From a virus, in IMG/VR virus record IMGVR_UViG_3300035698_009196, positions 1-21,156 of that record: a stretch of 21,156 nucleotides of DNA; one strand, 5' to 3'. The translations under genes were made by a program, and so were the position numbers. The notes below the pieces were generated by a model that saw nothing but the letters and a program-made list of their open reading frames with translations, ran no database searches and was not told the DNA's origin. Positions within the stretch are counted from its first letter, which is position 1. Every line of letters starts with the position of its first letter. This document shows positions 1,839 to 19,227 of this stretch, one piece after another.

Positions 1839-3467
1839 CTAGACGTAGTTCACATCTGCGACATGAACAAGACCGTAAAACTCAGGGCGAACCATTTTCT
1901 TCGCATAACGCGTCATGACGCCTTTGCGGGGGGTGAAATTTACTGGATCATATACTAATGGTGTCATGATAAGAGGTACATATGGAGCATATACAGCACC
2001 AGTTTCTAAGAAATTGCTTCCTCGGAAACCCATGAGAATTGTATTATCCAACATGTATGGATTCTTATAAACTGTGTAGCGGTTAGTCAACATACCAACT
2101 TTTTGAACACCCATTGCAAATGAACTGTTCATTGGATCAGCGTTAGTATCAGAAGCAAAGCCTGGGATACTTTCGATGATTGTTGCAGTCTCTGGAGACA
2201 CAACTATGAAGTTTGCACCACCACGAAGCGTTTTCTGATGGATCGCATTAGAAACAGCTTGTAGTTTATTACCTAATGTCTGGAACCAAGTACCCTTGGT
2301 GTAAGCCGAAGCATAGCCTGAGGACTCTGCAAATACTTTCGTACTTGAATTATACTCATATCCAACACGAGCTGACCAGTATTCTGTTTTTGCTGAAGCG
2401 TTAACTTTAAGCATGTCAAGAATTTCCAAGTCAATTTCCATCGTGATATACTCAGACAACATAGCAGTTAATTCTGCTTCTGCGTCAACACTATGATAAG
2501 CGTTTAAATCTTGAGCAAGTTCTGGAGTCCAGACAGCTTTCAATTTACGAGTTTTAGCAACGATTGGGATGCTCTTCATTTTGATGTCGATTTCAGGAAT
2601 ATCAACGTCATCCGCACTGTTAGGTGAAGGAGTCGTGAAGGTAGTCTGCTCGAAATCACCACGTGTAATATCAGTAGGTAACTTGTGATATTTCAGCGTT
2701 AATGAACCGCTAAATTCGCCAGGAATTGTCATACCTGGGTCGATGATAAATGAAGCACTTGTTGCAGTTATAGTTGTGTAAGCTGGGTAAAGTGTTGTTA
2801 CTTCTGTTGTGACAGCGCCACTAGTACCAGAACCTGATATTACGAAAGCACGTACACCGTCAAAGTCACCTGCGGCAAATTCTGAACGAGCAATAGAAAC
2901 CTTTAACAGATTGCTAAGACTTGAGGACAGATCATTGTCAAATTTTACATCTTCCCAAACTACGGAAGCTGATGTATGATTTGAAGTGGAAGCCGTGACA
3001 TCATTGATTGTATATCCGAATTTACCAGCGCCATAAAGACCACCACTAGCATCGCCAGATGCAGAAGTATTACCGTAAATATCGGTGTTAGTTGTAAAAC
3101 CAGTCTGTGCTGTTCCATACTTGAAATCCAAGTAGAAAATAAGACCAGAAGGCAAGTTCATTGGTTGTACGGACACAAATTCCTGTGCCGCTAATTCGCC
3201 GAAAATACGACGGACTAACGGTAACGCTACTCCACTCCACTCTTCCGAGTTAGATGCAGTACCAGTTTTTGAAGATTCATCAATAAGCTGACGTGCTTGG
3301 TTCTCAAGCAATACTGCCATATTGTTTACTGCACCATCTGAGGCAAGACCCTCAAGAAGACCAGTTGGTTCCCATTTTCCAACAAGAGCCTTTGATTCTT
3401 CCAAACGTCTGCGTTGTGGGGAGTATCCTTCCATTAGTTGTTCAATTGTGTTCATTGATTTACTCAT
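1839..3467 (-). CDS. gp23: Major capsid protein, gp23-like (542 aa)
   Basis: Forms the hexameric shell of the head. The motif FVSVQPMNLPSG (about residues 96-107) matches the gp23-family VQPMNxPTG region, and the length is close to T4 gp23 (521 aa). The N-terminal part is a helical pro-segment (KWEPTGLLEGL at 31-41, AVLLENQARQ at 51-60) ending LIDE at 61-64. Cutting after E64 would mirror the T4 gp23 cut after E65. A Ser/Thr/Gly-rich variable stretch (about 120-230) probably forms a surface insertion. The ATG at 3467 follows the scaffold stop by 14 bases with a GGAG site; the gene ends in TAG followed by a strong terminator. It contains no in-frame TGA. Confidence 0.95.
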   Translation of the reverse strand: MSKSMNTIEQLMEGYSPQRRRLEESKALVGKWEPTGLLEGLASDGAVNNMAVLLENQARQLIDESSKTGTASNSEEWSGVALPLVRRIFGELAAQEFVSVQPMNLPSGLIFYLDFKYGTAQTGFTTNTDIYGNTSASGDASGGLYGAGKFGYTINDVTASTSNHTSASVVWEDVKFDNDLSSSLSNLLKVSIARSEFAAGDFDGVRAFVISGSGTSGAVTTEVTTLYPAYTTITATSASFIIDPGMTIPGEFSGSLTLKYHKLPTDITRGDFEQTTFTTPSPNSADDVDIPEIDIKMKSIPIVAKTRKLKAVWTPELAQDLNAYHSVDAEAELTAMLSEYITMEIDLEILDMLKVNASAKTEYWSARVGYEYNSSTKVFAESSGYASAYTKGTWFQTLGNKLQAVSNAIHQKTLRGGANFIVVSPETATIIESIPGFASDTNADPMNSSFAMGVQKVGMLTNRYTVYKNPYMLDNTILMGFRGSNFLETGAVYAPYVPLIMTPLVYDPVNFTPRKGVMTRYAKKMVRPEFYGLVHVADVNYV

Positions 3468-3481
3468 TTAAATTCTCCTAA

Positions 3482-4597
3482 TTACTTTTTAATGTTAGCT
3501 AACTTCTGATAGCGAGCTTTCAAGTCAACATTTTCCTCTAAGATGTCAGTCTTAGGTTTAGTTGAACTGATTACTTTTGAACTGCCACCAGCTGGTTTTC
3601 TAACTTTGTTTTCAACAATTTTAGTTTTTTTAGTTGCTTTTGCGCCAAAAGATTCTGCGATGGTAGAGAAAATTAATTTCACTTCACGCAAGTTCTTTGC
3701 ACGGTCAAAAGTTTCAACGACTTTATATTTCTTCTCGTTGTCAAGATCAAAAGACCTGAACAATTTGTTAGTATAAAGAAGTTTTGAGTTAAGAAGGTTC
3801 ACTTCATTGATTTTACTCTTTAGAAATTTAACTGCCTGAACGTATTCAGCCATGTCAGCTTTCAATTTAGCATTTTCAATTTCAAGATCCGATTCGTCTG
3901 CCTCAACTTCGTCCTCTTCAAAATCATCATCCTCGCCCAATAGGTCGCTGATAAGTTCTTGTAGATCAAAGTCTTCCTCTTCCTCTTTCAGTTTAGCTTT
4001 ACCAACTGAACCGATACCAGAAGATTGGTTAGCCTTTCCAGGCTGTTTGTTGTCAGAGCTACCAATATCTGAGGAAACATCATTTTCTTCAATTTCTTCA
4101 TCATCTTCAATATCAATGTCAATTTCCTCTTCGTCTTCAAATTCAGAATCCATGTCCTCTTCGACTTCGTCCTCGGGGTACATATCTTCCTCTTCGTCAT
4201 CCAAATCAGCTTCAAGATCATTAATTGTTGCTTCTAGATCCAACTCATCAAACTCGTCATCCTCGTCCTCAACTTCGCCTTCAATTTCGTCTTCGACTGG
4301 TGCTTCGTCTTCAAACTCAATATCTTCTCCGCCTTCGGCCTCGAATTCCTCTTCGCCTTCTTCAGGCTCAACAGCGATTTCAGGTTCGCCTTCCTCTTCG
4401 CCAGCCACTTCTTCCTCACCAGCTTCATAGTCCATATCTTCCTCTTCTTCATCATCCATTTCTGTCTGAATCTGTTTTGCAAGCATAGCCTTGACGTGGG
4501 GATTAAAAGCTTCTTCGAGTGCTAATTTTGCGTTTTCTAAGGCTGTTTCACGAACTGCTTTAGCATCTGCAATAGCTTCTTTTAAAAGATCATCCAT
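3482..4597 (-). CDS. gp22: Prohead core scaffolding protein, gp22-like (371 aa)
   Basis: Scaffold of the T4-type prohead core, degraded by the gp21 protease before DNA packaging. The N-terminal 45 residues are helical. Residues of about 46-240 are extremely rich in Glu and Asp with many E-E-D runs. The C-terminal third (from about residue 240) is a coiled-coil-like segment with a basic end (ARYQKLANIKK). This acidic-middle, helical-end architecture and the position immediately before gp23 match gp22. T4 gp22 is shorter (269 aa), so the acidic region is enlarged here. The ATG at 4597 has GGAG ahead. The plus-strand mirror of this gene gives long serine-rich ORFs that are not genes. Confidence 0.88.
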   Translation of the reverse strand: MDDLLKEAIADAKAVRETALENAKLALEEAFNPHVKAMLAKQIQTEMDDEEEEDMDYEAGEEEVAGEEEGEPEIAVEPEEGEEEFEAEGGEDIEFEDEAPVEDEIEGEVEDEDDEFDELDLEATINDLEADLDDEEEDMYPEDEVEEDMDSEFEDEEEIDIDIEDDEEIEENDVSSDIGSSDNKQPGKANQSSGIGSVGKAKLKEEEEDFDLQELISDLLGEDDDFEEDEVEADESDLEIENAKLKADMAEYVQAVKFLKSKINEVNLLNSKLLYTNKLFRSFDLDNEKKYKVVETFDRAKNLREVKLIFSTIAESFGAKATKKTKIVENKVRKPAGGSSKVISSTKPKTDILEENVDLKARYQKLANIKK

Positions 4598-4771: not shown

Positions 4772-5065
4772 TTATTTTCCTTTAATATATTTTTCCATTG
4801 TTTTTACAGCTCTGGCGAAAATTTTATTATCCTCATCAGAAAATGCTAGTTGTGTTCTTTTAAATATTTTTAAATAATTTTTAAGATATGTTCCAGTCAT
4901 TTCATCTAAATCTGCTTCTCATTTTGTCCATTGTTTTTCATTCCAAGGTGATCTACCCATAAAACCGCCACCCATTTGATTTAGACCTGGGTCATGCATT
5001 TTTTTAGCTTCACTCAATTTCTGAATTTCTTCTCGTATGATTTGTTTTAATTCTGATCTTTTCAT
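4772..5065 (-). CDS. Leader-bearing putative internal protein (97 aa)
   Basis: Begins MKRSELKQIIREEIQKLSE, then AKK. This is the shared cluster leader, with a predicted prohead-protease cut after E19 that would leave a 78-residue protein. One in-frame TGA (4921-4919) is read as Trp49 inside WNEKQWTKWE; under the standard code the ORF would stop at residue 48 and be missed. The mature part is basic and Trp-rich in the first half and helical in the second. Its ATG overlaps the upstream stop (TAATG) and a terminator follows. Family and function are unknown; packaging into the capsid is inferred from the leader. Confidence 0.8.
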
Positions 5066-5346
5066 TATTTACTCCAAATATACCATTTACCGTTTTGTTT
5101 TTTCTTATTAAATTTAAGATTTCGGTACGGCATTAATTCTTTTAAGAAATCAATTATCATATCAGCGTGTTTCTCTTTGTATATTGCATCAACTTTAGCT
5201 GAGGTATTTGTAAATTCTGATTCCCCGTGTTCGAGTTTATTTTTATCCATGAAAGCGTGTACTTTTGTAGCAACACTTTTATATTCAGCTTCATTCAATT
5301 TCTGAATTTCTTCTCGTATGATTTGTCTAAGTTCTGATTTTTTCAT
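5065..5346 (-). CDS. Leader-bearing putative internal protein (93 aa)
   Basis: The leader is MKKSELRQIIREEIQKLNE followed by Ala-Glu, the most complete copy of the cluster motif; a cut after E19 would leave 74 residues. The mature part has a small alpha-beta look: a helix (VATKVHAFMDKN), an acidic middle, a helix (ADMIIDFLKELM) and a basic C-terminus ending WYIWSK. I do not recognise a family. The gene has AAGGAACC before its ATG and is coupled to the next gene by TAATG. Confidence 0.82.
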   Translation of the reverse strand: MKKSELRQIIREEIQKLNEAEYKSVATKVHAFMDKNKLEHGESEFTNTSAKVDAIYKEKHADMIIDFLKELMPYRNLKFNKKKQNGKWYIWSK

Positions 5347-5357
5347 GCTGGGTTCCT

Positions 5358-6059
5358 TTAATTCTCTCTGACTGTTTTGCCAAATTTTTCTAGTTCACGT
5401 ATTGGTATATCTATCCATTTAGTTGTTTTATGTTCTCCGCGTAATTGTATAGCTACAGGATAATGAGAATCCGCATGTTGCTTTACAAATGTAAGAATAA
5501 CATTTGAAATATATCCTTCAGATAATACGGATTCTGTGAAACCACTTAATCCCATTGCCTTGAATTGTTTCTTATTCTTGGAACCTCAGGAAGCTAAATC
5601 GTCCATGCTAACATTTGCCAGAACTGCTTTATTTGCGTCCATGTCAGCCATAGATTTGAAAACAGAGTATGACCAATCTTTATTTCGTCTTAGCACGCCT
5701 TGAGGAGATTTCCAAATTTTTACTTGGCCTTCAGTCAATCCCTCTTTAACTACTTCAAAGTCTGAGTTGCCTTTTAACCAACCATCATAAGCAACAAATT
5801 CACCTCTGCCACTCGGATTCATGATTACTAAGCCTTGTTGTGACGGATGCAAATGAGTTGAGGTTCTACCTAAGATAGTCAATTTTTGACCTTTCTTTAA
5901 ATTCTTCCCGCCATATTTACCACTTGACTTTACTAACAAATAACCGTGTTTGTTGTTATTTTGTTTTGCTACCATCTGTCTTAAAAAGTCAGCTTTTTTG
6001 TCCTCATCCAATTTCTGAATTTCTTCTCGTATGATTTGTTTTAATTCTGATTTTTTCAT
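5358..6059 (-). CDS. Leader-bearing protein with several internal cleavage-like sites (233 aa)
   Basis: Starts MKKSELKQIIREEIQKLDE, giving a predicted cut after E19. Two further Leu-x-Glu-Gly sites occur, GLTE at 107-110 and VLSE at 178-181, which would split it into pieces of about 91, 71 and 52 residues. An in-frame TGA (5588-5586, Trp158) joins what would otherwise be two ORFs; the second part has no convincing start of its own because it would begin inside the joined frame. Residues 35-100 are rich in Gly and basic residues (KSSGKYGGKNLKKGQKLTI) and could form a small beta-barrel. No family is recognised. Multi-piece processing is inferred from the motif only. Confidence 0.8.
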
Positions 6060-6069
6060 CTTCGGTTCC

Positions 6070-6585
6070 TTATTTTACAGTCTTAATTGCCCATTTATGA
6101 TTGTCTGTAATATCATCTTTATTAGACTTGATTATTTTATTCATATCAGAGAACACTTTTTCAATCTTTTTTATCATCGTATCACGTGGAGTTACACCTT
6201 GACGGAACGGTACTTTTACACGACCGAATGCCATGTGTTTCTGAGTAGGTTTTACTGTCAATGATGGATGACTTATGCCTTTTAATGCTAATTTTTCTCC
6301 CGCAAATTGGCCATCCTCTTTAAAACCATATACAAATAATTTCATATTCATAGGCGAGTTTTCATAGATGCCATTTGCCCAATCTGTTTTTTTACCTACA
6401 GCAAATTGAATGTACACTGCCGGGTGTCCTAATCCAGTATCCAAATATACGCTTAAGAAGGAATTTTTAAAATATTTATCAACCACAGCCTTTACCTCGG
6501 CGATAAATGAATCAGAGTCATTTGAACCTTCGTTTAATGTCTGGATTTCTTCTCTAATAATTTGTCTTAATTCTGATTTTTTCAT
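6070..6585 (-). CDS. Leader-bearing putative internal protein (171 aa)
   Basis: The ATG at 6585 is chosen because it places the shared leader MKKSELRQIIREEIQTLNE exactly at the N-terminus; a longer in-frame extension would put it inside the protein and overlap the upstream gene. A cut after E19 would leave about 152 residues beginning Gly-Ser. The mature part has an acidic start, a beta-rich middle (VYLDTGLGHPAVYIQFAVG) and a basic C-terminal half ending in a helix. No family recognised. It lies 2 bases after the upstream stop, so translation is probably coupled. Confidence 0.82.
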   Translation of the reverse strand: MKKSELRQIIREEIQTLNEGSNDSDSFIAEVKAVVDKYFKNSFLSVYLDTGLGHPAVYIQFAVGKKTDWANGIYENSPMNMKLFVYGFKEDGQFAGEKLALKGISHPSLTVKPTQKHMAFGRVKVPFRQGVTPRDTMIKKIEKVFSDMNKIIKSNKDDITDNHKWAIKTVK

Positions 6586-6586
6586 A

Positions 6587-6850
6587 TTACCATCTTCTTT
6601 TTCATACTTTTTTGAAGTCACTTGATTTTAATCCTACACTTTTACCAGCTTTATTGAGAATTTCAATTAAGTCATCGCTTAAAACTGTAGGTAAATCCTC
6701 CTTTAAATTAGAGTCTCCGAAAATCTGCGATTGAACCTGTAAATAATGAGTAAGTCCCTCTATTATTTTTTTCTTAGCATGTTCAATTTGAGCATTATCT
6801 TCGGTAAGTAATTCCTCTTTAATTAATTGGCGCAATTCTGATTTTTTCAT
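6587..6850 (-). CDS. Leader-bearing putative internal protein (87 aa)
   Basis: A shorter leader variant, MKKSELRQLIKEELLTE, then DNA; predicted cut after E17. The body is mainly helical and ends with basic residues. The final four codons follow an in-frame TGA (6604-6602, Trp) and give WKRRW before a TAA, so the end depends on the TGA = Trp reading. Under the standard code it would be 82 residues. The next gene starts 2 bases beyond the stop. Function unknown. Confidence 0.78.
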
Positions 6851-6865
6851 AGTTTATTCCTTTTT

Positions 6866-7216
6866 TTACCAAACTGTCATTTGTTTGTCAAGAAATTTAA
6901 GAACTTTGTTATAGCCGAATTTCTTAAATAAACTGTTTTCTAAGTTCCATGCTTCTTCATCTTTGGCGAGTGTGAGCAGTTGATCTGCATCTAGGGCCGC
7001 TTCAATCGCTTGAATGTTTGTCATATCAGGTTCATCTGAGTATGCTAGTCCTTCTTCTCAGTCTCCACCTGCTATTGATACAACTCGATTAATCGGCCCG
7101 CGTAATTCCCCAGCAGTTGCTTTGTCAAGTTTTACATTCTTGTCATAGACCCGTTTAGCCTCTTTCAAGGCTTGAATTTCTTCTTTTATGATTTGTCTTA
7201 ATTCTGATTTCTTCAT
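6866..7216 (-). CDS. Leader-bearing putative internal protein, hidden by in-frame TGA (116 aa)
   Basis: Starts MKKSELRQIIKEEIQALKE, then AKR; predicted cut after E19. An in-frame TGA (7060-7058) is Trp53 in GGDWEEG. With a standard code only a 52-residue fragment would be seen, so a routine annotation would skip the gene. The C-terminal half is helical and acidic (about residues 62-100), ending in KFLDKQMTVW and TAA. It lies just downstream of the bS21 gene. No family recognised. Confidence 0.82.
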
Positions 7217-7231
7217 AGTTAGTTAGATCAC

Positions 7232-7426
7232 CTACTTTCCTGTATCGGCTGTGCGATATTTTTCACGTAATCTTGCAATAGCACGTGCTTTACGTCTGCG
7301 CTCTGAAGGTTTTGTGTATTGTTCACGTTCTCTTAGTTCAATGAATACTTCTTGGTCTTTCATTTGACGTTTGAGTATTTGGAGTGCTTTTTCTACATTT
7401 CCGTTGATCACTTTTACTTTTACCAT
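7232..7426 (-). CDS. rpsU: Ribosomal protein bS21 homologue (64 aa)
   Basis: Small-subunit ribosomal protein that helps mRNA selection by the 30S subunit near the anti-Shine-Dalgarno end of 16S rRNA. The sequence fits the family along its length: VEKALQILKRQMKDQEVFIELREREQ, then the signature KPSERRRKARAIARLREKY (pattern KPS-x-RR+K). Length is normal for bS21. It carries no cluster leader, so unlike its neighbours it should act in the infected cell rather than be packaged. bS21 genes are known in several phages, including pelagiphage HTVC008M. The ATG has GAGGT ahead; the stop is TAG. A role in biasing ribosomes to phage mRNA is inferred. Confidence 0.92.
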   Translation of the reverse strand: MVKVKVINGNVEKALQILKRQMKDQEVFIELREREQYTKPSERRRKARAIARLREKYRTADTGK

Positions 7427-7446
7427 GTTTACCTCTTTTGTTATCG

Positions 7447-8253
7447 TTATTTTTTCAGTAATTTATTTTTCTTAATGAAATCATAAATAGCCTGATTTAA
7501 TTGAGCTCTCCCGATAGCCTTAGAGCTATCAGGTCTCAATCTAAAAAATTTATTGCGAGTGTCAATGTAAGCCCATGCCTTTGACATATTTTTATTATCT
7601 GCTTTTAATTGTTTTGCTACTGCATCGCCTGACTTTTCAATATCTACTTTGATAATAGTGCCATTATCAGCTTCGACCGATAAGATGGTTTCATTCAATC
7701 CTTCTGCCAAAATTTCTCTGATTTGCCTACGAATATAGTTTTCTTCAAGTTTATTGTCTTCGAGAAACGCTATATATTTTTCAGCATACATTTGTTCTCT
7801 TTTATAGGATGCATTCTCAGCTTTCTTTTTCAATGATTTTGGCATCTCACGACATTCCTCTTCGGATAGACCGTGATTGTTAGCGAAATACGAAATTCTA
7901 CGAGAATCCACAGAATAATTTTTTCGCCACTTGTTTTCTGGCAATCTCTTGAACCACGAGTTTACTTCCTTTACCGTGACTTTTCTTCTAGTCGGAATAG
8001 CACTCCACGCGGCTTTTAGATCGTTTTTGTAATTTAGCCAGTATGCCGGTCTAATTTCATCTCATGCAATCCTATATGTTTTTCTGTCTACAAGTGATTT
8101 AACACTTACGGTAGACCAATCATTTTTTAATACTTTAAATGGTGCAATAGCCACTTCTTTAGCCATTTTTATTTTTTGCATAAATATTTTTCTGTATTTG
8201 TCCTTGATCTTAATCAATGACCCGAGTTTTAGACTTTCATCAAGAGGTTGCAT
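7447..8253 (-). CDS. Large putative internal protein with internal leader-like segment (268 aa)
   Basis: An in-frame TGA (8064-8062, Trp64 in RIAWDEIRPAYW) joins two segments that otherwise look like separate ORFs. The N-terminus is MQPLDE, so a very short leader with a cut after E6 is possible. Residues 170-188 (EENYIRRQIREILAEGLNE) resemble the cluster leader but lie inside the protein, suggesting a cut after E188 that would release an 80-residue C-terminal piece. Residues 65-165 are rich in basic and aromatic residues (SRRISYFANNHGLSEEE) and could bind nucleic acid; no family is recognised. GGAG precedes the ATG. Two-domain processing is inferred. Confidence 0.75.
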
Positions 8254-8261
8254 ACTATCTC

Positions 8262-8591
8262 CTATAATACCTTAGTGATATCCTTAAAATTAATAAATTT
8301 AGCCTTTGCCCAATTAAGTATGAATTTGGCTACGGTCTTTAATTCTGACCTTAAAGCGTCATCTATAGATCCGGCACGTTGTTGTTTCTGTTGTATTTTT
8401 TCAAGACTTTTAATATATTCTTTCTTGCCTATCTCAGTGGCAATTGTCAAATACGCCTCAATAATGTCATTATTTTGAATGTAATCTTTCACATCCTTTA
8501 ACTTATCAGGAGGAAAATATGTCCGAGTACTAAACTCGTTTAATGTTTGAATTTCTTCTCTAATTATTTGACGTAATTCTGATTTTTTCAT
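8262..8591 (-). CDS. Leader-bearing putative internal protein (109 aa)
   Basis: The leader is MKKSELRQIIREEIQTLNE, then FST; predicted cut after E19. The remaining 90 residues are predicted mostly helical, with a basic, Gln-rich middle (IQQKQQRAG) and a C-terminal helix (VAKFILNWAKAKFI). The ATG has CGGAGA ahead; the stop is TAG, 8 bases before the next start. Function unknown. It follows a 121-base gap that separates it from the homing-endonuclease-like gene. Confidence 0.82.
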   Translation of the reverse strand: MKKSELRQIIREEIQTLNEFSTRTYFPPDKLKDVKDYIQNNDIIEAYLTIATEIGKKEYIKSLEKIQQKQQRAGSIDDALRSELKTVAKFILNWAKAKFINFKDITKVL

Positions 8592-8712
8592 CCTTATGTC
8601 TCCGTTTATAATGACGCTACATCATTGTTTATATATCTAATATTTGCATTTTTGCCGGTTACTATAAAATCAATACCTTTAATTTTACAATATTTTAATG
8701 CAGCTTTATATT
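8592..8712 (-). pseudogene. Gap with an open, startless 38-codon fragment
   Basis: Between the zinc-finger/NUMOD-like gene and the next leader gene, one minus-strand frame is open for 38 codons from a TAG near 8726 to a TAA near 8611. It contains the peptide CKIKGIDFIVTGKNANIRY and has no plausible start codon. It may be the tail of a gene broken by insertion of the upstream mobile element, or a frameshifted end of that element. The remaining bases hold an AT-rich spacer and the next ribosome-binding site. The coding reading is weak. Confidence 0.3.
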
Positions 8713-9015
8713 TTAGTATAATCTACTTTCACGCGCATGTTTAGATGCTAATTTTCTATCACCGTGAAATTTTCCACCAAAATTGGGATTATTAATACCA
8801 CTATATTTATTTGAAAAATGCTCACGTATTTGTTTTCCTTTTTTGTCACCACAAATTTCTTCAATCGTTTTTCCTTTTCTATGTGACGGTCGGCCGGACA
8901 TGGCAGACGATTGAAAGGACTGCTTACATTCCATAGAACATAATTTTTTCTTCTGGCTCGGCCAAGATTCAAATGTTATTCCACATTGAATGCATAATTT
9001 AATTATTTTAGGCAT
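8713..9015 (-). CDS. Homing-endonuclease-like fragment: zinc finger plus NUMOD-type motif (100 aa)
   Basis: The N-terminus has a four-cysteine finger (C8, C11, C26, C30), followed by GKTIEEICG and NNPNFGGKFHG (about residues 75-85). The second motif resembles the NUMOD3 DNA-binding modules of GIY-YIG/HNH homing endonucleases (NNPxxG). No complete catalytic GIY-YIG or HNH core is visible, so this may be a truncated homing enzyme or a DNA-binding remnant. It lacks the cluster leader, and its ATG overlaps the stop of the upstream gene, as expected for an insert between genes. Assignment as mobile-element-derived is moderate; activity is doubtful. Confidence 0.65.
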   Translation of the reverse strand: MPKIIKLCIQCGITFESWPSQKKKLCSMECKQSFQSSAMSGRPSHRKGKTIEEICGDKKGKQIREHFSNKYSGINNPNFGGKFHGDRKLASKHARESRLY

Positions 9016-9686
9016 TATTTTCCATCTTTAGAAACATACATTTTATCAACATAATCATAAAATTCTTTTTTCTCGTCATCATTTAAATCATCTGGGGAGT
9101 TAATACCAAATTTCTTCATTGCTGATTTAAAGAATGCTTGATATTTGCCATCATTTTCTTTAATTTTGTCGCCGTCAATTTCATCTTTTTCAAAAAATGC
9201 TCCACCACCGTCAGCTTCCTCAGTTAATTCATTAATATCATAATAGCGATTTAGAATGTGGCCCATGTCTTCAAATACAGATTCCATGCGTTGCTGTAAT
9301 GATGTTGCTTCAGTTGCAATTTTAGTGAACTCACCTGCATGTGCGCCTAACATTTTCATATTCTTATTAACTGTTATTTTATCAAAACTGTTTTCAGTTT
9401 CTTTAAGAGTATGAGTCCTTGCAATTTCTGCAATTTTAGATAATTTTTCTGCAATAGAACGTAGATCATTTTCACGATAAATAGATTTACCGATTTCGTT
9501 ATAATTACCGACCTCAGTTACAAATTCTTTAAGGTCATATTCTGGTTCATCTGACTCTTTGTAAAAATCTTCTACAAGGTCTGATAATTTACTTGTACGA
9601 AATTGACTGTCTCCGCCAAGAGCTCCACTGGTTACGAATCCTCCTGCGATTGTTATCTCATTTAATAATTTTTTCTTTTTACTCAT
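9015..9686 (-). CDS. Putative virion-associated protein with short leader (223 aa)
   Basis: Begins MSKKKKLLNE, then ITI: a ten-residue basic leader ending in Leu-Asn-Glu, a shorter form of the cluster leader and similar in length to T4 internal-protein leaders. Residues of about 30-155 are helical and acidic. The C-terminus has a compact motif, YQAFFKSAMKKFGINSP, followed by DDEKKEFYDYVDK. From memory, motifs of this type recur at the C-termini of uncharacterised head-region proteins of marine T4-like phages; I could not check this. Start at ATG 9686 with GGAG ahead. It may be a packaged internal protein or a minor structural protein. Confidence 0.72.
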   Translation of the reverse strand: MSKKKKLLNEITIAGGFVTSGALGGDSQFRTSKLSDLVEDFYKESDEPEYDLKEFVTEVGNYNEIGKSIYRENDLRSIAEKLSKIAEIARTHTLKETENSFDKITVNKNMKMLGAHAGEFTKIATEATSLQQRMESVFEDMGHILNRYYDINELTEEADGGGAFFEKDEIDGDKIKENDGKYQAFFKSAMKKFGINSPDDLNDDEKKEFYDYVDKMYVSKDGK

Positions 9687-9696
9687 TTGGATTCTC

Positions 9697-9978
9697 CTAT
9701 GGTTTGCTCAATGCACTAAATGTCATTGACTTTTTTAATTTATTGAAAGCTTTTTGTAACTCAGAATCCCTGAATGTTTTTGCTCCAGCTCTCCAGGCTA
9801 ATAATGCTTCTAAAGTCCAGGTTTCCATTTCCTCATCACCTATTTTCTTAATATCTTGTTTAAGATCACGCTTCAATGCCGCAAGCAATGAATCTAAATT
9901 CTGGTCAGGAGTTTGAGCTTCGTTAAGACGCCACTCTCTCCATTTTTTATTTATGTTCATTATGTCTGTATTTTTCAT
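9697..9978 (-). CDS. Leader-bearing putative internal protein (93 aa)
   Basis: The leader is divergent: MKNTDIMNINKKWREWRLNE, then AQT. It keeps the length (20), the basic-amphipathic character and the Leu-Asn-Glu end of the cluster leaders but not the SELRQ sequence. It resembles the leader of the gene at 11680 in having an N-x-x-W core. The body is a helical protein with an acidic middle and a basic helix near the C-terminus (LQKAFNKLKKSM). The stop is TAG. Unknown function; packaging inferred. Confidence 0.75.
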   Translation of the reverse strand: MKNTDIMNINKKWREWRLNEAQTPDQNLDSLLAALKRDLKQDIKKIGDEEMETWTLEALLAWRAGAKTFRDSELQKAFNKLKKSMTFSALSKP

Positions 9979-9987
9979 AATTGTCTC

Positions 9988-11148
9988 CTATGACATGTAG
10001 TGTGGACGTAAATGTGCTCTTGGTGGTAAGTCCATTTCATTGACTACCTCACCTTTTCATTTTGTAGCTAAATGGGTTGCTAATTTTTCTGCATCTTTTT
10101 TAGATAGGCCATTTTTCAATACTTGCCCGCCCAATTGCCTAGAAGCATGAACACTATGCATTACGGTGTATTTGCCACCGCCCTTTGTAAAGATGTGTAC
10201 ATAATCTTTTTTCTCATTCAATGAATGTATTTCCTCACTAACTACCTCACCGCCTCATTTTGTTGCTAATTCTTGTCCTAAACGATGTGCTGATTGTTGT
10301 GATAATCCAGTTTTTAGTACTTGGTCGCCTTGTCTCACGCTATATTTATTGTCTATATCTGAATAAACATATACGCATTTTTTCCCCTCTGATAAAATAC
10401 TTTGTATTTCTTCACGAACTGCTTCTCTAACCTGTTCGTGCATTACTAACCATTTTTTGAGTGTCCTTGCCGCTTCCGCAGGTTTAAGGTACATCTTTGG
10501 AGCATATTTAAGTTTTTTACCTGTATCTGCTATCGCGTAATATAATGTTTTGCCTTGGTTTACTAAACTTGCAAGTTTAATATGATAATCTTTAAATGAT
10601 GCAACATTAATTACTTTTTCACCCTTAAATGACCAATCGTATGCGATTGTTGCTTCATTAATACCTTCTTTAAATACCTGTCCTTTTTTGATGTCACCGC
10701 CGTGTAACCATTTCACGAGTGCTTTATAAAATTTTGGTCGATCTTCTCTAAATTGTCCGATGTGATAAACAGTATTTCCGCCACCTTTAGTGTCAGTTGA
10801 CAAATACATGTGAGTGCTATCACCGTGTTTTTTAATATACCACGGATATATTTTACCATCCTGTTTGTCTGATAATTTGATTTTGATCCATTCGTTTTCT
10901 GGCATGACATCTTCCTTTTTTAAGCGACTTTTTTCTGCGCGTCCTCTGTTTTTACCCTCTGCTTCAAATCCTACGATTTTTCCATTTTTATGGGAAGCGT
11001 CTTTTTTATCACCGTTACCGTATGTGCCTTTTTGCCTGTTGTACTTGTTTAGCTCGGCACGGTATTTTTTAGATTTCGTAGAGGATTGAAATTTCTTATA
11101 TTCCTCTTTGTAATTGCGTTCTGCCTTTTCTTCTATATTATCTTGCAT
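9988..11148 (-). CDS. Polyprotein-like gene with tandem domains and internal cleavage-like sites (386 aa)
   Basis: Two in-frame TGA codons (10257-10255, Trp298; 10059-10057, Trp364) join the frame to a TAG at 9990. Residues 22-75 are strongly basic, with YGNGDKKDASHKNGKIVGF and KNRGR resembling an HNH-like DxxHK...NR pattern. A Trp-rich domain follows to about 160. Then x-x-E sites recur: GINE165, ILSE254, LNE312 and VNE371. Residues 255-312 and 313-371 repeat each other (YSVRQGDQVLKTGLSQQSA against KYTVMHSV...QVLKNGLSKKDA, both ending ATKW-x-GEVV-x-E). AVREEIQSILSE at 243-254 resembles the cluster leader. The start lies within the end of the upstream gene. Processing into four or five small proteins is inferred. 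Confidence 0.8.
10043..10270 (-). repeat. Direct repeat within the polyprotein-like gene
   Basis: About 30 bases at 10043-10072 and 10241-10270 are nearly identical. They encode the ATKW-x-GEVV joint at the end of each tandem domain, including the TGA codon read as Trp. The 198-base spacing equals 66 codons, so the repeats are in frame and reflect duplication of a whole domain unit. Confidence 0.8.
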
Positions 11149-11680
11149 AATCGTATAATTCTAATTCGACCACATTTTTCTTTTTATCTAAACTTCATAC
11201 TTTATAATATCTTGATTCAAAATCATCCTCACTCAATTTAGTCATATCACTTTTTGTTAGCTGAACTGTCGCCATTTGCGGTAATGAATATTTATCTGGG
11301 GCTGTGAAAGTAATTTTTTTAATACCGGCACCGGATTTAGAAATCATTTTGTTCAAAGATTTAGCTATATGTTTTAATCTTGCGGTAGCTTTCTTTTTCT
11401 CAGTCTTTGATATGTCCATTTTAGCAATAAAATCAGTTACCTTACCCATTGGTTGAGCTTTGTCATGTTTGAAGCCAGTATAGCCTCCTGCATTTGCCTG
11501 GCCGATTACCATCTTTTTAGCAGTTTTATAAACTGGATCCGATTCATCATATCCTAATGCTGATTTGACTTTGATGGAACGACCGGTTTTTGGATTTTTA
11601 ATTTTTTTATCCATTACTGAGGCTTCATTCATGAAATTATCTCAATTTTTGTTTATTGATTCATAAAGTTCTTTTTTCAT
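11138..11680 (-). CDS. Leader-bearing putative internal protein (180 aa)
   Basis: The true start appears to be the ATG at 11680, overlapping the upstream stop (TAATG). It gives the leader MKKELYESINKNWDNFMNE, then ASV, with a cut after residue 19. This requires reading TGA (11644-11642) as Trp13. A second TGA (11197-11195) is Trp162 and extends the end by 18 residues to a TAA. The body is basic (KNPKTGRSIKVKSALGY at the start of the mature part, resembling small basic phage domains with PKTGR), with a helical centre. Its cleavage-like end is Met-Asn-Glu rather than Leu-x-Glu. Function unknown. Confidence 0.8.
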
Positions 11681-11910
11681 TATTGTTTCTCCATGTATTC
11701 AGCCATTGCATTTCACATTGCTACAAATGCATTTAAATTACTTTTACCGATACGTTGGTATTCATGTTTCTTAGTACGATTTACTAAATCTTTTGCTTGA
11801 GCTTCTAATCTTTTAGCCAATGTAGCGTGAGTGTATTTTCCAATACCCGGAACTAGAATTTCGTCCTCTTTTGCTTCGTCTATTTTGATTAAATCTGTAA
11901 GTTTAGTCAT
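11680..11910 (-). CDS. Leader-bearing small protein (76 aa)
   Basis: Starts MTKLTDLIKIDE, then AKE: a 12-residue leader ending in Ile-Asp-Glu. One TGA (11715-11713) is read as Trp66 and extends the protein by 11 residues (WNAMAEYMEKQ) to a TAA that overlaps the next ATG. The mature part is mostly helical and basic, with LAKRLEAQAKDLVNRTKKHEYQR in its centre. The TAATG coupling created by the longer reading supports the TGA = Trp end. No family recognised. Confidence 0.78.
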
Positions 11911-11919
11911 TATTTTATC

Positions 11920-12222
11920 CTAATATATTTCTAAATTATCAGCATCTTTTTTAAGTTTTTTAATAAAATCAGTTATACTGTTTTCAAAACTGTTTTTGGT
12001 ACTGTCATTCATAGTAACCTCAAAAACAGCTTGAACAAGTTCTTTTTTAGCACTTTCAAGTTTAGCAAACGCGGCCTTCACCTTTGAATTAGAAGTTGTT
12101 TTTGCTTCATTCATTTCATCGGAATGTGCTTTAGTCGTGTCCGCAAGTGTAGGTAACGGCTGACCAGAAACATGTTCAAATGCGTCTTCTGTAAGTAAAT
12201 CTTTTAATTTTAAATTTTTCAT
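11920..12222 (-). CDS. Leader-bearing small helical protein (100 aa)
   Basis: Begins MKNLKLKDLLTE, then DAF: a 12-residue leader ending Leu-Thr-Glu. Residues of about 45-95 form a helical, coiled-coil-like region (KVKAAFAKLESAKKELVQAVFE) that could oligomerise. Stop TAG, 9 bases before the next start. Nothing identifies a biochemical role. It sits third after the protease in the cluster. Confidence 0.75.
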   Translation of the reverse strand: MKNLKLKDLLTEDAFEHVSGQPLPTLADTTKAHSDEMNEAKTTSNSKVKAAFAKLESAKKELVQAVFEVTMNDSTKNSFENSITDFIKKLKKDADNLEIY

Positions 12223-12231
12223 CTTGTCTCC

Positions 12232-12504
12232 TTATTTGCGAACATCAATTTGAACAGTTTTATCATTATTTGCTTTTCGAGTGATAGAAATCATTCCTTG
12301 ATTTACTCCCTCTTTATCCTTAAAATAATATACATATCCTACATGAGGAACGTGGCTTTTAGTCATTTTCATATTTGGAAATAATTTTTTTGCCTGCATT
12401 AATACTTTTTTATTTACAGTAAGCTCGCCGGTATCTATATGTTTCCAACTAGCTTCGTTCAATATTTCTTCCTTAATCATTTGGCGTAGTTCTGATTTTT
12501 TCAT
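12232..12504 (-). CDS. Leader-bearing putative internal protein (90 aa)
   Basis: The first cluster gene after the prohead protease. The leader is MKKSELRQMIKEEILNE, then ASW; predicted cut after E17. The mature 73 residues look like a small alpha-beta domain: a helix (KKVLMQAKKLFP), then strands around HVGYVYYFKDKEG and GMISITRK, ending in a charged strand. The pattern suggests a compact folded domain rather than a structural filler, but no family is recognised. Start 3 bases after the protease stop, so it is very likely co-translated with gp21. Confidence 0.82.
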   Translation of the reverse strand: MKKSELRQMIKEEILNEASWKHIDTGELTVNKKVLMQAKKLFPNMKMTKSHVPHVGYVYYFKDKEGVNQGMISITRKANNDKTVQIDVRK

Positions 12505-12506
12505 TT

Positions 12507-13115
12507 TTATCCCCGGATAATCTCGTTAATGGTATTTTCAACTTTGCACCACTTGCCACATGTTCTGTCTTCAACTTTATGTTCGACACCTTCGCGCATC
12601 GGATGTAAAAATGCACCATGTGTACTAGGATTGCTTACAAAGTCAAATGCGATTAATTCAAAATCGTCCTGTACTTCTTGTGTGTCGCCATTTGCTTCAC
12701 TTTGTTGTACTGAACCAAGACCTCTTGAAGAAATTCCAAGTTTAATACCTGCTTCAAATAAGTTACGTAAAATATTACCTGCAGGTGTTCCTAAAATTTC
12801 GACTGTGCTTACTAAATTGTCACCTTCAAAATGCATTTCAGTAATATTATGTGATACATTCTGTAAATTGACAACCGAACTATCCGGGTGATCTAATTCG
12901 CCCATTGCTCGTTTTTGTTGAATAAAATTTTTCGCATAATTTTTAGATTCGCGGGCTAAAATTTCCATAGGATAAACTCTGCCATTTTGATTTTTAGCAT
13001 TAGCCCTTTGGAGTACGCCTTGTACAATAAGTCGCCCATTTTCTTTTATGGATTCATTTATTTGTTGTTTACTGATTTCAAATAGAATACAATCAGTTAA
13101 TAATTGTGGTTGCAT
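12507..13115 (-). CDS. gp21: Prohead core protease, gp21-like (202 aa)
   Basis: Serine protease of the T4 prohead (peptidase family S80). In T4 it cuts scaffold, capsid pro-segment and internal-protein leaders after Leu/Ile-x-Glu. The family pattern is clear: NAKNQNGRVYP (40-49), GELDHPDSSVVN with the likely catalytic His76, and KLGISSRGLGS (125-135) with the likely catalytic Ser at 129 or 130. Length is close to T4 gp21 (212 aa). The ATG overlaps the upstream stop (TAATG). It directly precedes the leader-bearing cluster, which would supply its substrates. Its specificity here is inferred from the family. Confidence 0.94.
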   Translation of the reverse strand: MQPQLLTDCILFEISKQQINESIKENGRLIVQGVLQRANAKNQNGRVYPMEILARESKNYAKNFIQQKRAMGELDHPDSSVVNLQNVSHNITEMHFEGDNLVSTVEILGTPAGNILRNLFEAGIKLGISSRGLGSVQQSEANGDTQEVQDDFELIAFDFVSNPSTHGAFLHPMREGVEHKVEDRTCGKWCKVENTINEIIRG

Positions 13116-13645
13116 TATGCATTCTCCTCATTAGGTTCAAACTCTCGTGCATATTTCAGTGCTAGTTTTGCACGATCTTTTTTTGGAAATAGTGTGTTCC
13201 ACTGTCCGCCGTACTCTTTTGAGTATAATTTAGCACCCTGTTCTACAAAATATAAAAATGCTCGTACCGCCTGCGCTAGTTTAAATTTATTATTTTTGAT
13301 CGCCTTATGCATTTGTTTCATAATTGGCATTTTTATAGTTTTAAATATTTTCGTGTTTTTGTCAAGAAATTGCTCCAATTGTTTCATTTCATCTGAAAGT
13401 TTAATATCTGCTTCATACAATTGTGCTATATGTTTGTTGTTCTTGTCTGCTCGTTTATAGTCAAATACTTCTGGATCTTTATGTCCATCGGCATGACCAG
13501 TTTTTACTCGTTTTTTACTCGTTCTAAACGCATTTGGTGTTTTAATTGGGCCTTCGCCACCATCAATATTACCAGTTGCATTGGCTTCCTCGATCTCCGA
13601 TTGAATTACACTTCGTATATAATTCCGTAATTCCTTAGACTCCAC
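13115..13645 (-). CDS. Putative prohead core protein in the gp67/gp68 position (176 aa)
   Basis: Lies between portal and protease, where T4 has the core genes 67 and 68. The start is probably GTG at 13645 (AAGGAAC ahead), as no ATG fits, and it overlaps the end of the upstream gene. The N-terminus ESKELRNYIRSVIQSEIEE followed by ANA resembles the cluster leaders (ELRxxI...Glu), so it may carry a targeting or cleavage signal. The middle is basic (RTSKKRVKTGHADGHKD), followed by a helical region (about residues 60-150). No sequence match to T4 gp67/68 is claimed; the assignment is by position. Confidence 0.6.
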   Translation of the reverse strand: MESKELRNYIRSVIQSEIEEANATGNIDGGEGPIKTPNAFRTSKKRVKTGHADGHKDPEVFDYKRADKNNKHIAQLYEADIKLSDEMKQLEQFLDKNTKIFKTIKMPIMKQMHKAIKNNKFKLAQAVRAFLYFVEQGAKLYSKEYGGQWNTLFPKKDRAKLALKYAREFEPNEENA

Positions 13646-14590: not shown

Positions 14591-16450
14591 TTAATCTGTG
14601 GAAGATTCATTTTTCAAATCTTCGTTATATTCAGCTTCTATATCAGCAGATTCCTCAAGTATTTTTTTGCCCTCATTGTCAAATTTTTTGCCCAATTGAG
14701 CTACTAGACCGTCATAAGTTGCCACTCTTAAAATTTTACCGTGTTTAGGTGAGCCTGAAAAAGCCTTGCGCCTATCATGTTTTCCAAGAGGATCACGGCC
14801 ATTAATTGAACTGTCCTTGCCATATTTAGGACCCTCTTTGGGACGACCTGAACCAGGCCATCCGCCTTTTGGCATTTCTTCGCCTTCTTCTGGGTCAACA
14901 TCTTGACCTTGCGGTGCGCCTTCTTCACCGGGGTCTCCGCCGGCGTTAGCACCCTGAGTACCGACTGCCTCACCACTTTTCAATGGGTCGTTGCCTTCGT
15001 CCTCAATCTGTTGCCATCTAAATGCACGTTTCTTGTCTTTCAACATTTCCAATCTAATGTTATTTTTTTCTTCTTGACTGAATTTAAAAACATTGTCATA
15101 CAGTCATTCCGAAGGTAATAAATTATCTTGCATTGCTGAACTTGCGGCCGTTAATTTATTGACTAGCAATTCAATCTTTTCTTCCTCGTAGATCGTAGAA
15201 GGATTGGTTAATTCTAAATCGAAACTCAATAAATTTTCATCTGTATATCCCTGTGTGTAAAGATGTACAACTCCAACTTTTTTAAGTTCGGCTATAAGCG
15301 TTCTCTGAATACGTTCGATTGTTCTAGCAAAACGAACATCTTCTGCGGCCAATGTTGCCTTTGAATTTAATTGATCATCATATCCTAAGAATGCTTTTGG
15401 CACTTTCAAAGCGGCCAACATCTTATTTTTAAGATATTCAATGTCAGCAGTCATATCATATTCCATACCTTGAAGTGTATCAATCTCAGTACCACTATCG
15501 CCACCACGAACAGGTAAGAAAAAATCTTCTGTAAGATTCTGCATATTATAACGAAGGTTATAATCGCCAGTTTGGTTATCTATGATAGGAGTTTTCTTCA
15601 TTTTGTTCATCATTAATTTCATGTATGGTTCAACTTCTGCTGGAGAAAGGTTACCAATATCAACTTTGAAAATTCTCTTTTCAGGAGCACGCATGATTCT
15701 GTGAATCAACATAGCATCTTCCATCAATGTCAACTGCTTCCAAACTTTACGAGCACCTTCAATCATTGATTTACCATACGGTAAATAATTTGAATCTGAA
15801 TTAAGCCTGTAGTGGGCAATTTCAAATTCCTCAAAAGTCTCCAAATTATCGCCTTTCATTGATCCGAGTGTTTCACCCTGACCTAGTTGAAAGGTGACTT
15901 CATTCGGTCTCTCAGGGTCTATGCCTTCTAATCTAACGACATCATATACAGATAACGGGATAATATTAAATACGCCATATTGTTCCTTGAGCATCAAGTG
16001 TAAATAGAAATCTCCGTATTTACACAAGTTACGTGTTCATGGCCACAAATTAAATTCTATGTTCATAATATCATAATAAAGATTATTTAGAATTTCCTTG
16101 ACTTCTTCACTCTCAGTATTAACTTGAAGTACTGTACCATATTCTGATTTTAATGTACATTCATCTGCATAAATATCTAAGGCTGAGGCAATGATTGCAT
16201 CGGAATCCATTTGTTCATAATCTTTGAACAATGCCATTCTCTGACCTGCTTGGTAAAATTGCATAGCTTTTCCGGTTCCACCGGCCATTGATGAATACAT
16301 TCTACTATACCTATCTAGATAATTTTTAGCTGATCTAGATTGTAGTTGATTTGTATCAATTACTTTTAATTGTTTTCCGCCTTTATGTCTAATAATGACC
16401 TGTCCGGAAAATAATCGTTTTAAATTTGCTCTGAAATTGCTCTCTGCCAT
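14591..16450 (-). CDS. gp20: Portal vertex protein, gp20-like (619 aa)
   Basis: Forms the dodecameric portal through which the terminase packages DNA. The frame needs two TGA codons as Trp: 16039-16037 in LWPWTRNLCKYGDFYLHL, and 15106-15104 in PSEWLYDNVFKF. Family-like blocks include SSMAGGTGKAMQFYQAGQ (about 49-66), ALDIYADECT (about 90-99), EVEPYMKLMMNKMKK and LPVRGGDSGTEIDTL. It is longer than T4 gp20 (524 aa), mainly through a C-terminal tail rich in Gly, Pro, Glu and Asp (about residues 480-560) that may be disordered. The ATG at 16450 has AGAGG ahead. No tail sheath/tube genes (18, 19) lie between it and gp17, unlike T4. Confidence 0.93.
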
Positions 16451-16470: not shown

Positions 16471-18042
16471 TTATCTAAGCCATCCTAAATCTTCTCGTTG
16501 TCCATTAACTTCCCAATCCCAACCCTCAGCAGTTTTAGTGTCATCTTGAGTATATACACCTGAATGTTGTAGGGTCTGACCAAGAACTTGTTTTTGGATT
16601 TCATTGCCTTCCGTGCGTAGTCGAATTGCGGTATCTCTAACCCACAATCCAATCGCCAAACTCATGACTAAATCATCATTATATCCTTTAGCCGCTTGAG
16701 CACGATTTCTTTCATAAATGAAAACAAACAATTCATTAATCAATCGTTTTGAATGAACCATTACGGAACGGTCTCTAAAATACTCATCTAATTTAGCGAT
16801 GATCAACGGACGCGTTTTTGAACTGGTTGTAAATCCGGGAATCATTTTTCTATCTTCAGCATTATGTTTGTTTGTTAAATGCTGTTTAACATCCACGTAT
16901 TGAAAATCTCGTGTGGAATAAAATAAATTTTTGTAATCTCGTTCGATTACCTGTTGGAGTGCGGCTCAACCTATAGTATTATTTTCTACTATAAGTAGTG
17001 CATCATTATATTCTGTAGAAATATTCACCAATAAATCACCGTACGACTTGGTATCCAACTTGCCTCGATATTCAGCCACCTGGGTCATCGTATCAAGCTC
17101 TAAAATATGAAAAGCAGAATAATCAGTTGAATCTCCGCGTGAAACATCAGCACTAACCACATACGATTTACCGGGTAATGGATATTCTCATATCCAAATA
17201 TCTTGTTCCATACCACGTCTTTCTATTGGATCTTTCATATGTTGTGTTCTATATTCCTCAATCACAGAGCCGGGGACCACAGTCTTACCGGAACTAATAA
17301 AGTCACAGTCATTTTCCTGTGCGGCACGGTCCTTGTCGCCGAGACTTTTTTCTTCCGAGTCTCGCCATGCCTGGTCACGTTCTGGATGAACATCTCATTT
17401 TAATGTAATTGGATTGAAATCGTTTTCTTGTGTTTCGGAGCGCATCCATGTAGAATGGAATCAGTTACCAATTCCGTTTGGAGTACTCAGTGCAATACAA
17501 TCGCCACCAGTTGCAAGTGTCGGTGAAGCGGCCGTCCAAATCTCGTCAACTCCGGGAATGAACGCGGCCTCATCAAGGATCAATAATGACAATCCTTCTG
17601 AACGTGCGGCGTCTTCCGAGCTTGTTTCTGCTACGATTTGGGAGCCATTGTGGTATCTAAGGGAAAGTTTGTTATCTTCAATACAAGACGATTTTAACCA
17701 TCCTGGAAGATTGGCGTGCATAACTCGAACTTTCGTTACAAGATTACGAGCCTTTACTTGTTTTGTTGCAATTACTAAAATATTTTTGTCTGTATGAAAT
17801 GTCATTAATCATAATGAATATCCAGCGACAAGCGTTGATAAGCCAAGTTGACGACCTTTTAAAATAATATTGTATCTGTAAGACATAAAATCATTTATAA
17901 CATCACATTGGAAATCATATAGAGCGAATGGCACTTTTCCACGTATCGGGTGCTGAATAATACAATATTTCTTCATGAAATATTCGGGACTCAATCCGCA
18001 TTTTACTCACTCTTGTTTAATCATTTCCTTATAATCTGACAT
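16471..18042 (-). CDS. gp17: Terminase large subunit, gp17-like (523 aa)
   Basis: ATPase/nuclease motor that packages and cuts phage DNA. Six in-frame TGA codons (18009, 17811, 17463, 17397, 17190 and 16968, first base) read as Trp and restore one frame. Examples are GYSLWLMTF, TPNGIGNWFHSTW and NNTIGWAALQQ, where Trp fits the family. Walker A is KGRQLGLST (62-70); Walker B is LLILDEAAF with Asp157 and catalytic Glu158; the coupling motif is STPNG (186-190). The nuclease has SADVSRGD with Asp299, VENN with Glu353 and NDDLVMSLA with Asp456/457. All key residues are present, so it should be active. The ATG at 18042 overlaps the upstream stop. Confidence 0.96.
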
Positions 18043-18043
18043 A

Positions 18044-18427
18044 TTATCCTTTCACAAGTCCTAATGCATATGCTGTAAGAACAATAATCATCATTCCTTG
18101 GGCTCGGTAAAAGTCTGGAGTCATATACCATTTAGGTCTTTTGGATTCCATCTCTTTTTTGTATATTTCTACTCTATCTTCTAGGAGTAAAATATGTTCA
18201 TCCTTGTATTCAAGTATCAATGAATCGAGGTTTGCCTGATATTCAAATTTTCCAATCAATTCAGATTGTTGCATAATTACCACTTGTCGGAGAGAATCCG
18301 TAACGACAAGTTCCGTATATGCGCTCAATTTTTCCTGCATCTTCATTACTTCATCTGCGGTGAAAGTATATTGAGCATCAGCCAACCCAAATAAAAGTAC
18401 TAGGGCAATTAATATACGTTTAATCAT
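18044..18427 (-). CDS. Exported coiled-coil protein with C-terminal membrane segment (127 aa)
   Basis: ATG at 18427 (a TTG two codons earlier is possible). A signal-peptide-like start (IKRILIALVLLFGLADA, likely cut after ADA) is followed by a Leu/Glu/Lys-rich coiled coil (about residues 25-95). A hydrophobic segment follows near the C-terminus (GMMIIVLTAYALGLV). No lipobox cysteine is present. With the overlapping upstream gene, which has an N-terminal anchor and a coiled coil, it looks like a spanin-type lysis pair or another envelope-spanning complex. It is not a clear match to known spanins. Its stop is adjacent to the terminase start. Confidence 0.65.
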   Translation of the reverse strand: MIKRILIALVLLFGLADAQYTFTADEVMKMQEKLSAYTELVVTDSLRQVVIMQQSELIGKFEYQANLDSLILEYKDEHILLLEDRVEIYKKEMESKRPKWYMTPDFYRAQGMMIIVLTAYALGLVKG

Positions 18428-18942: not shown

Positions 18943-19227
18943 TTATTTCTTAATAGCTTTCCACCAATATCGTTCATCTAAAATTGGGTCTTCAAATATA
19001 ATTTCGACTGAATCCATTTCTCTTTCATGGACTTTGTGATTACCGTATGCCTTTTCAAGCTTTTTGATTTCTTTTTTGAAATTATAGGCTCCCTTTGAAG
19101 GATATAGCCAAATAGTATTTGAGTTTGTCAAATCACCCATAAAATTACCAAAGTCATGATGAATATGACCTTCTTTTATAATTTTAATTTCTTCCTTTAT
19201 TACTTGGATTAATTTCAATTTTTTCAC
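18943..19227 (-). CDS. Leader-bearing protein outside the main cluster (94 aa)
   Basis: Starts at GTG 19227 (AGGGG ahead) with MKKLKLIQVIKEEIKIIKE, then GHI. The leader has the same 19-residue length and the I-K-E-E-I core as the main cluster leaders, ending Ile-Lys-Glu. It is the only such gene found upstream of the terminase. The body has a His-rich start (GHIHHDFGNF), a basic middle and an acidic, Trp-containing end. Packaging in the head is inferred from the leader only. Confidence 0.72.
   Translation of the reverse strand: MKKLKLIQVIKEEIKIIKEGHIHHDFGNFMGDLTNSNTIWLYPSKGAYNFKKEIKKLEKAYGNHKVHEREMDSVEIIFEDPILDERYWWKAIKK

Follow-up and report, generated by a model that had tools for sequence, protein, structure and literature searches.

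The DNA analysed here, referred to as the window, is the 21,156-nucleotide stretch of IMG/VR record IMGVR_UViG_3300035698_009196, a 21-kb fragment of an uncultured T4-like phage in which all major genes lie on the minus strand. Between its genes for the prohead protease gp21 and the gp22-like scaffold, at positions 4,772 to 12,504, is an array of small genes, many of whose products begin with the same short peptide. Comparison with other viral contigs showed that this peptide is a protein leader that ends at a Leu/Ile-x-Glu (LxE) site and is tied to gp21. It is probably a capsid-targeting leader, removed by gp21, which loads a modular and hypervariable cargo of internal proteins.

The leader and its LxE site

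This phage demonstrably reads TGA as Trp, as judged from the alignments described with the head genes below, and the array was therefore read in this way. With TGA as Trp, the interval between gp21 and gp22, which spans approximately 7.9 kb as compared to 30 bp in T4, contains 17 genes, while table 11 gives approximately 22 open reading frames (ORFs), several of them broken. An [LIM]xE site falls within the first 25 residues in 15 of the 17. Eight of the genes encode a near-identical leader of 17-19 residues, MKKSELRQIIREEIQxLxE or a close variant, followed by unrelated bodies, and seven of the nine genes without this long leader still have an [LIM]xE site (binomial p = 6e-4), the chance rate being 22% per gene as estimated from random 24-mers of body composition. 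The two leaderless genes are a bS21 gene and a Cys-rich ORF. An initial annotation of the window had given the coordinates and orientation of the array correctly, with the protease upstream and the scaffold downstream, and its eight near-copies of the leader (MKKSELRQIIREEIQxLNE) are exactly eight. The array it described is real but its counts were off, as 16 genes and 13 leaders become 17 genes, 15 of them with [LIM]xE, when TGA is read as Trp; it mentioned neither the altered genetic code nor polyproteins.

In the loci scanned (given L numbers here), the leader was N-terminal in 233 of 233 matches, representing 165 distinct proteins. A DNA pattern built on leader residues 1-13 only was found in at least 120 stretches in 2.9 million viral contigs, for which an arbitrary 16-mer served as the control pattern, compared to a single stretch in 84,980 cellular genomes (257 Gb). 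The sole cellular match (L211, CAJQGZ010000038.1) comes from the bin of an uncultured bacterium; its contig, of 5.1 kb, is probably phage DNA that was misbinned. Within 42 viral contigs, the true leader pattern gave 98 matches and the reversed pattern none. Conservation is strongest in a charged amphipathic helix at residues 4-14. A tblastn search of INPHARED with the 20-residue leader returned no match, and the peptide string was not found in the open-access papers searched.

The end of the leader was determined using 141 non-redundant leader proteins picked on residues 1-13 only; because the pattern was limited to these positions, residues 14 onwards constitute a free test. [LIVMF]xE motifs peaked with Glu at residue 17 (25 cases), 19 (35) and 20 (50), with approximately two per position further on, and information content fell from 0.7-0.8 bit at residues 18-20 to approximately 0.1 bit from residue 22. 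The residue following LxE (P1') was most commonly Ala, as in T4. In that phage gp21 cleaves after L/I-x-E, and the capsid-targeting sequences (CTSs) are 10-19 residues long (PMC9026906). The sites in the T4 record (arrows mark known or predicted cuts) are MKTYQEFIAE↓A in internal proteins IPII and IPIII (residue 10), ...ITE↓A in IPI (19), MAKINELLRE↓S in gp24 (10) and LTE↓A in gp23 (65). The leaders studied here also have two lengths, short (10-12 residues) and long (17-20 residues), which parallel the 10-residue tags of IPII and IPIII and the 19-residue tag of IPI. The gp23 of the window has LIDE64↓S close to where T4 gp23 is cleaved (LTE65↓A), and LI[DR]E is present in 14 of 14 gp23 proteins, those of the window and 13 relatives.

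Association with gp21, variable bodies and candidate polyproteins

Co-occurrence of the leader with gp21-family proteases, a test named beforehand in the initial annotation, was found. The gp21 gene is present in 22 of 42 leader contigs of at least 30 kb and in 3 of 32 random viral contigs (Fisher p = 8e-5), and these counts do not show the leader to be common in phages that lack a gp21-type protease. If each phage had one gp21, approximately 20 of the 42 would be expected to show it, based on summed lengths and an assumed genome of approximately 170 kb. Another T4-type marker was detected in 7 of the 20 gp21-negative leader contigs, one of which ends inside the portal gene while six carry gp32. 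The initial annotation had also proposed looking for leader genes in head-gene regions, and in a 140-kb relative (L332-L338) all 9 of 9 are located there, within 3.7-38 kb. Among 30 loci with both gp21 and gp22, the spacing between the two varies from 0.3 to 9.8 kb, and the interval contains 13 long-leader genes in L016 and 10 in L012. More distant relatives with the standard code have mostly short leaders (MIKLKDLLKE↓), and the cultured relatives Mel-JY01 and immuto have small gp21-gp22 gaps.

By homology search, the content of the array is hypervariable and the bodies are mostly unique to one phage. For six of the seven long-leader window products tested, the loci searched yielded no homologue of the body, though the nearest gp21 is 85% identical, and 5586-6059 is the only one with such a homologue; conserved members such as 9015-9686 are common to the whole group. 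Like T4 internal proteins the bodies are basic, with a median isoelectric point of 9.1 as compared to 6.2 for other proteins of the same loci. Pfam and PHROG scans left nearly all of the bodies without a family, so no effector class can be assigned, and the 165 distinct leader proteins share almost no family. No internal-protein family appeared in the Pfam and PHROG output for 162 leader or array proteins, which included no direct comparison with IPI, IPII, IPIII or Alt. One relative, L084, encodes in its gp21-gp22 interval (11685-12317) an Fe/Mn superoxide dismutase with a leader-like start (MKLKKLIE), which is possibly packaged. The same interval also encodes Volactin (viral actin-like protein, PF25216; L084:10649-11707), which has no leader.

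Several array genes look like polyproteins with LxE at internal domain junctions. Homologues that differ in architecture were aligned, and the point at which their homology begins was scored per family, in place of an unrestricted test which a single large upstream protein family dominated. In array and leader families, 38% of homology starts fall within 3 residues of [LIVM]xE, compared to 16% expected (p = 2e-5), while in other families of the same loci the values are 17.5% and 13% (p = 0.35). Genes were called with the standard code for this comparison, and the sole effect of this should be a blurred signal. The motif E[SAG][VIL]NE is 5.6-fold commoner inside interval proteins than outside, and permuted control motifs show no enrichment. 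The product of L030:10956-12518 carries the leader and six E[SAG][VIL]NE sites approximately 50-90 residues apart, and a module of L030, of 66 residues and starting at SVNE↓GGMGILDK, is 73% identical to the entire body behind the leader of L032:7478-7726. Similarly, the leader of L194:3271-3756 is directly followed by a body that shares 92% identity with residues 108-181 of the 5358-6059 product of the window, a module starting at LTE↓GQVKIWK. In the 9988-11148 product, modules 3 and 4, which follow LSE254 and LNE312, are paralogous and each is preceded by a leader-like helix. Structure models were of low confidence (predicted local distance difference test, pLDDT, 51 and 58); in that of residues 1-297 of the 9988-11148 product, bbb-a modules are separated by linkers of low confidence, and sites 165 and 254 both fall within these linkers.

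Proposed role and alternative explanations

We propose that the gp22 scaffold core of the prohead would take up the CTS-bearing proteins, that gp21 would cleave them there after L/I-x-E, and that the freed, mostly basic bodies would remain in the head beside the DNA and would then probably be injected into the host. The gp21-gp22 interval would act as a loading bay for cargo genes, holding a few conserved internal proteins with leaders of 10-12 residues and many hypervariable single-module proteins with leaders of 17-20 residues, and the internal LxE sites of polyproteins would allow gp21 to free several modules per chain. The likeness to T4 argues strongly for packaging and cleavage; injection, and roles in host takeover or anti-defence, may follow but are more conjectural. 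There is perhaps an even chance that these phages possess a modular cargo-delivery platform with gp21 as its processing enzyme. The common leader and LxE linkers would let any small domain be plugged into the head, alone behind a leader or as a bead of a polyprotein, and the resulting block of many interchangeable effectors would be delivered together with the DNA and would change even between close relatives.

Three observations weigh against reading the peptides as capsid-targeting leaders removed by gp21. In 18 of the 141 leader proteins there is no LxE at the usual place. An I-R/K-E sequence at residues 10-12 is invariant inside the leader core, and cleavage could take place at this sequence instead of, or as well as, the terminal LxE. 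Leaders are also found on genes outside the gp21-gp22 interval, as is the case for the IP genes of T4.

The array proteins could instead be components of the prohead core, with a part in scaffolding or size determination like T4 gp67 and gp68, which would be targeted and cut by gp21 and then degraded or expelled, never injected. Such a role would suit an array that adjoins gp21 and gp22, as well as the conserved family at 9015-9686, which is predicted to be helical, and the multi-cut T4 proteins gp67, gp68 and gp22 have many LxE sites. However, most of the tested long-leader bodies have no counterpart in relatives with 72-85% identity in gp21, and they are therefore a poor fit to an essential structural role; the bodies are basic, and the polyprotein modules are predicted, at low confidence, as folded domains with linkers. 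We consider a core function unlikely.

It is less probable still that the leader is retained as an uncleaved docking peptide, tethering accessory proteins to a shared partner such as the scaffold, portal or packaging machine. Although its most conserved part, the charged amphipathic helix, is typical of a docking surface, the LxE follows this helix at a variable distance, conservation stops there, and internal module junctions are marked by LxE and not by the helix. A repeat acting at the DNA level (a recombination cassette, the end of a mobile element or a translational start signal), with no function for the peptide, would account for eight near-copies in one 8-kb region and for the shuffling of bodies behind the leader, but differences among the copies are mostly synonymous. 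Codon differences among seven window leaders comprise 50 synonymous and 33 non-synonymous changes, where 19% synonymous would be expected at random, and this explanation was therefore rejected. Matches are also always in frame at the start codon, and codon use varies between phages while the peptide is constant, leaving a DNA repeat with a negligible probability.

Read as capsid-targeting leaders, the peptides of the window resemble those of T4 IPI, IPII, IPIII and Alt (PMC9026906), in that an N-terminal leader of 10 or 17-20 residues ending in L/I-x-E precedes a small, basic, fast-changing body, and as in T4 the cognate gp20, gp21, gp22 and gp23 are encoded by the same phage. T4 has four such genes, away from gp21-gp22 and with the IP genes at 65-66 and 74 kb, whereas the window has approximately 15 in one gp21-gp22 block, with one leader family and with candidate polyproteins carrying internal LxE; as regards gene number, the initial annotation was right to call the set several times larger than that of T4. 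T4 gp67, gp68 and gp22 are comparable in having several LxE per chain and in belonging to the same operon, and they are processed by gp21, as is predicted here. Their fragments, however, are small peptides of which the head loses most, whereas the window segments are modules that recur and that also occur singly behind a leader. Inner-body and ejection proteins of phiKZ and SPN3US, and the P1 Dar system, are packaged, processed by the prohead protease at x-x-E and ejected (PMC5694885, PMC9026906). Unlike the leaders described here, giant-phage propeptides are mostly longer than 100 residues and share no sequence, and the protease is only distantly related. Since T4-like phages are already known to package varied proteins by means of CTSs, and this has been suggested to be a general mechanism (PMC9026906), the link to gp21, put forward in the initial annotation as its new claim, is not new in kind; what is new is the scale, the gene arrangement and the modular polyproteins. 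Neither a shared leader family on such large gp21-gp22 arrays nor modular LxE-linked cargo polyproteins were found in the open-access papers searched.

The leader offers a way to search by sequence for internal proteins in uncultivated T4-like phages. Such proteins are hard to find, since their bodies are short and diverse and most often carry the annotation hypothetical. Any ORF with the leader, or any LxE-bounded module in a head-gene polyprotein, is a predicted packaged and perhaps injected protein, and such predicted cargo forms a pool of candidates for early host-takeover and anti-defence factors. The leaders also make up a natural collection of candidate CTS tags with which to load phage heads with proteins. 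Encapsulin and carboxysome cargo-loading peptides are similarly short and amphipathic and steer unrelated cargo into a shell; they are not removed by a protease and have no phage context.

Genes of the window and the genetic code

The head genes of the window follow the T4 order (17-20-core genes-21-...-22-23), which places the window in a T4-like head module. When table 11 is used, TerL, gp20 and several array genes are broken, while all are whole with TGA as Trp. TGA positions were masked and relatives were then aligned. TerL (gp17) occupies an open frame at 16471..18057 (PF03237, 3e-9 on the code-4 reading) that is whole only with TGA as Trp, and its true start is probably within this frame, near 18040; its in-frame TGA codons at 83, 199, 221, 290 and 364 align with Trp in 70/73, 70/77, 78/78, 83/84 and 84/88 relatives, respectively. 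The gp20 portal gene (14591..16450; PF07230, 1e-69) encodes 619 aa with TGA as Trp, and its TGA codons 138 and 449 align with Trp in 99/99 and 91/99 relatives. Sequencing errors were rejected as the cause of the broken TerL and gp20, as the in-frame TGAs face Trp in most relatives. TGA is also read as Trp in L012, L013, L015, L016, L135, L174 and L206. In the 140-kb relative, in-frame TGA occurs in late genes, TerL and gp20 among them, but seldom in the other long ORFs; a suppressor tRNA(UCA) was looked for in this relative and none was found.

Directly upstream of gp21, in the position of T4 gp68, is a gene for a prohead-core-like protein (13115..13645), assigned by its gene order as in T4 20-67-68-21; its homologue in L168 bears an MKKSEL leader. 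The gp21 prohead protease gene (Peptidase_S77; 12507..13115) was identified by PF03420 (8.8e-27) and by a match to the T4 gp21 structure 5jbl (1.6e-12). Downstream of the array, the gp22-like acidic scaffold gene (3482..4597; N-terminus MDDLLKE↓A...), conserved across 30 loci, was assigned by position and composition, and it is followed by the gp23 major capsid protein gene (1839..3467; PF07068, 7e-76). Two small genes downstream of gp23, at 423-749 and 1252-1602, resemble the gp23 N-terminal arm (pairwise BLAST E = 2e-6 and 8e-5) and are possible stand-alone paralogues of this arm. These genes, and those listed below, are all on the minus strand.

Starting from the gp21 end, the putative cargo genes, assigned from their sequence except where other evidence is given, begin with a long-leader gene, MKKSELRQMIKEEILNE↓A (12232..12504), and two short-leader genes, MKNLKLKDLLTE↓D (11920..12222), whose orthologues have short leaders, and MTKLTDLIKIDE↓A (11680..11910), whose body recurs as a homologous module within L084_6463, joined near LxE. 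Code-4 translation gives MKKELYESINKNWDNFMNE↓A (W = TGA) at 11138..11680, and a candidate cargo polyprotein of 386 aa at 9988..11148, with LxE sites INE165↓A, LSE254↓G and LNE312↓K between modules. Next are MKNTDIMNINKKWREWRLNE↓A (9697..9978) and a conserved core cargo or internal protein with the short leader MSKKKKLLNE↓I (9015..9686), supported by an alignment of 15 sequences and by 36 matches in relatives, where the leader is MAKLKDLLKE↓N. The leaderless Cys-rich ORF (8713..9015) is HNH or Zn-finger-like in sequence, with no significant match to Pfam. It is followed by a long-leader gene, ...EEIQTLNE↓F (8262..8591), and, on the code-4 reading, by a candidate polyprotein of 268 aa (7447..8253) with MQPLDE↓S at its start and LAE184↓G and LNE188↓T inside; its parts are fused in L013 and L016 and elsewhere separate or shuffled. 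The leaderless ribosomal protein bS21 gene is located at 7232..7426 (PF01165, 8.1e-12, among A2 members), and Microcystis phage Mel-JY01 likewise has a bS21 gene (annotated RpsU) between gp21 and gp22.

The remaining genes of the interval all have long leaders. These are ...EEIQALKE↓A (6866..7216; 116 aa, one TGA), MKKSELRQLIKEELLTE↓D (6587..6850), ...EEIQTLNE↓G (6070..6585; 171 aa), a candidate cargo polyprotein of 233 aa (5358..6059) with the leader ...KLDE19↓D and internal LTE110↓G and LSE181↓G, supported also by its module match in L194, ...EEIQKLNE↓A (5065..5346), and MKRSELKQIIREEIQKLSE↓A (4772..5065; 97 aa, one TGA). Outside the interval, a gene at 18943..19227 carries a ninth copy of the long leader, encoding a protein with a conserved body and a diverged leader, KLKLIQVIKEEIKIIKE↓G; its L013 orthologue, 55% identical over 94 aa, has the canonical leader.

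Upstream of the head cluster, the window encodes a nucleotidyltransferase-like protein (19997-20869, minus strand; DNA_pol_B_palm, 1.1e-5). A large nucleotidyltransferase-like protein (approximately 800-1100 aa; GRFQPFGPHH) is encoded upstream of TerL in L030 (101-3040), L041, L043, L051, L055 and others. Its variable N-terminal domains often end in V/I/L-N-E right before the conserved domain, and the protein is possibly, like T4 Alt, a virion protein that gp21 processes.

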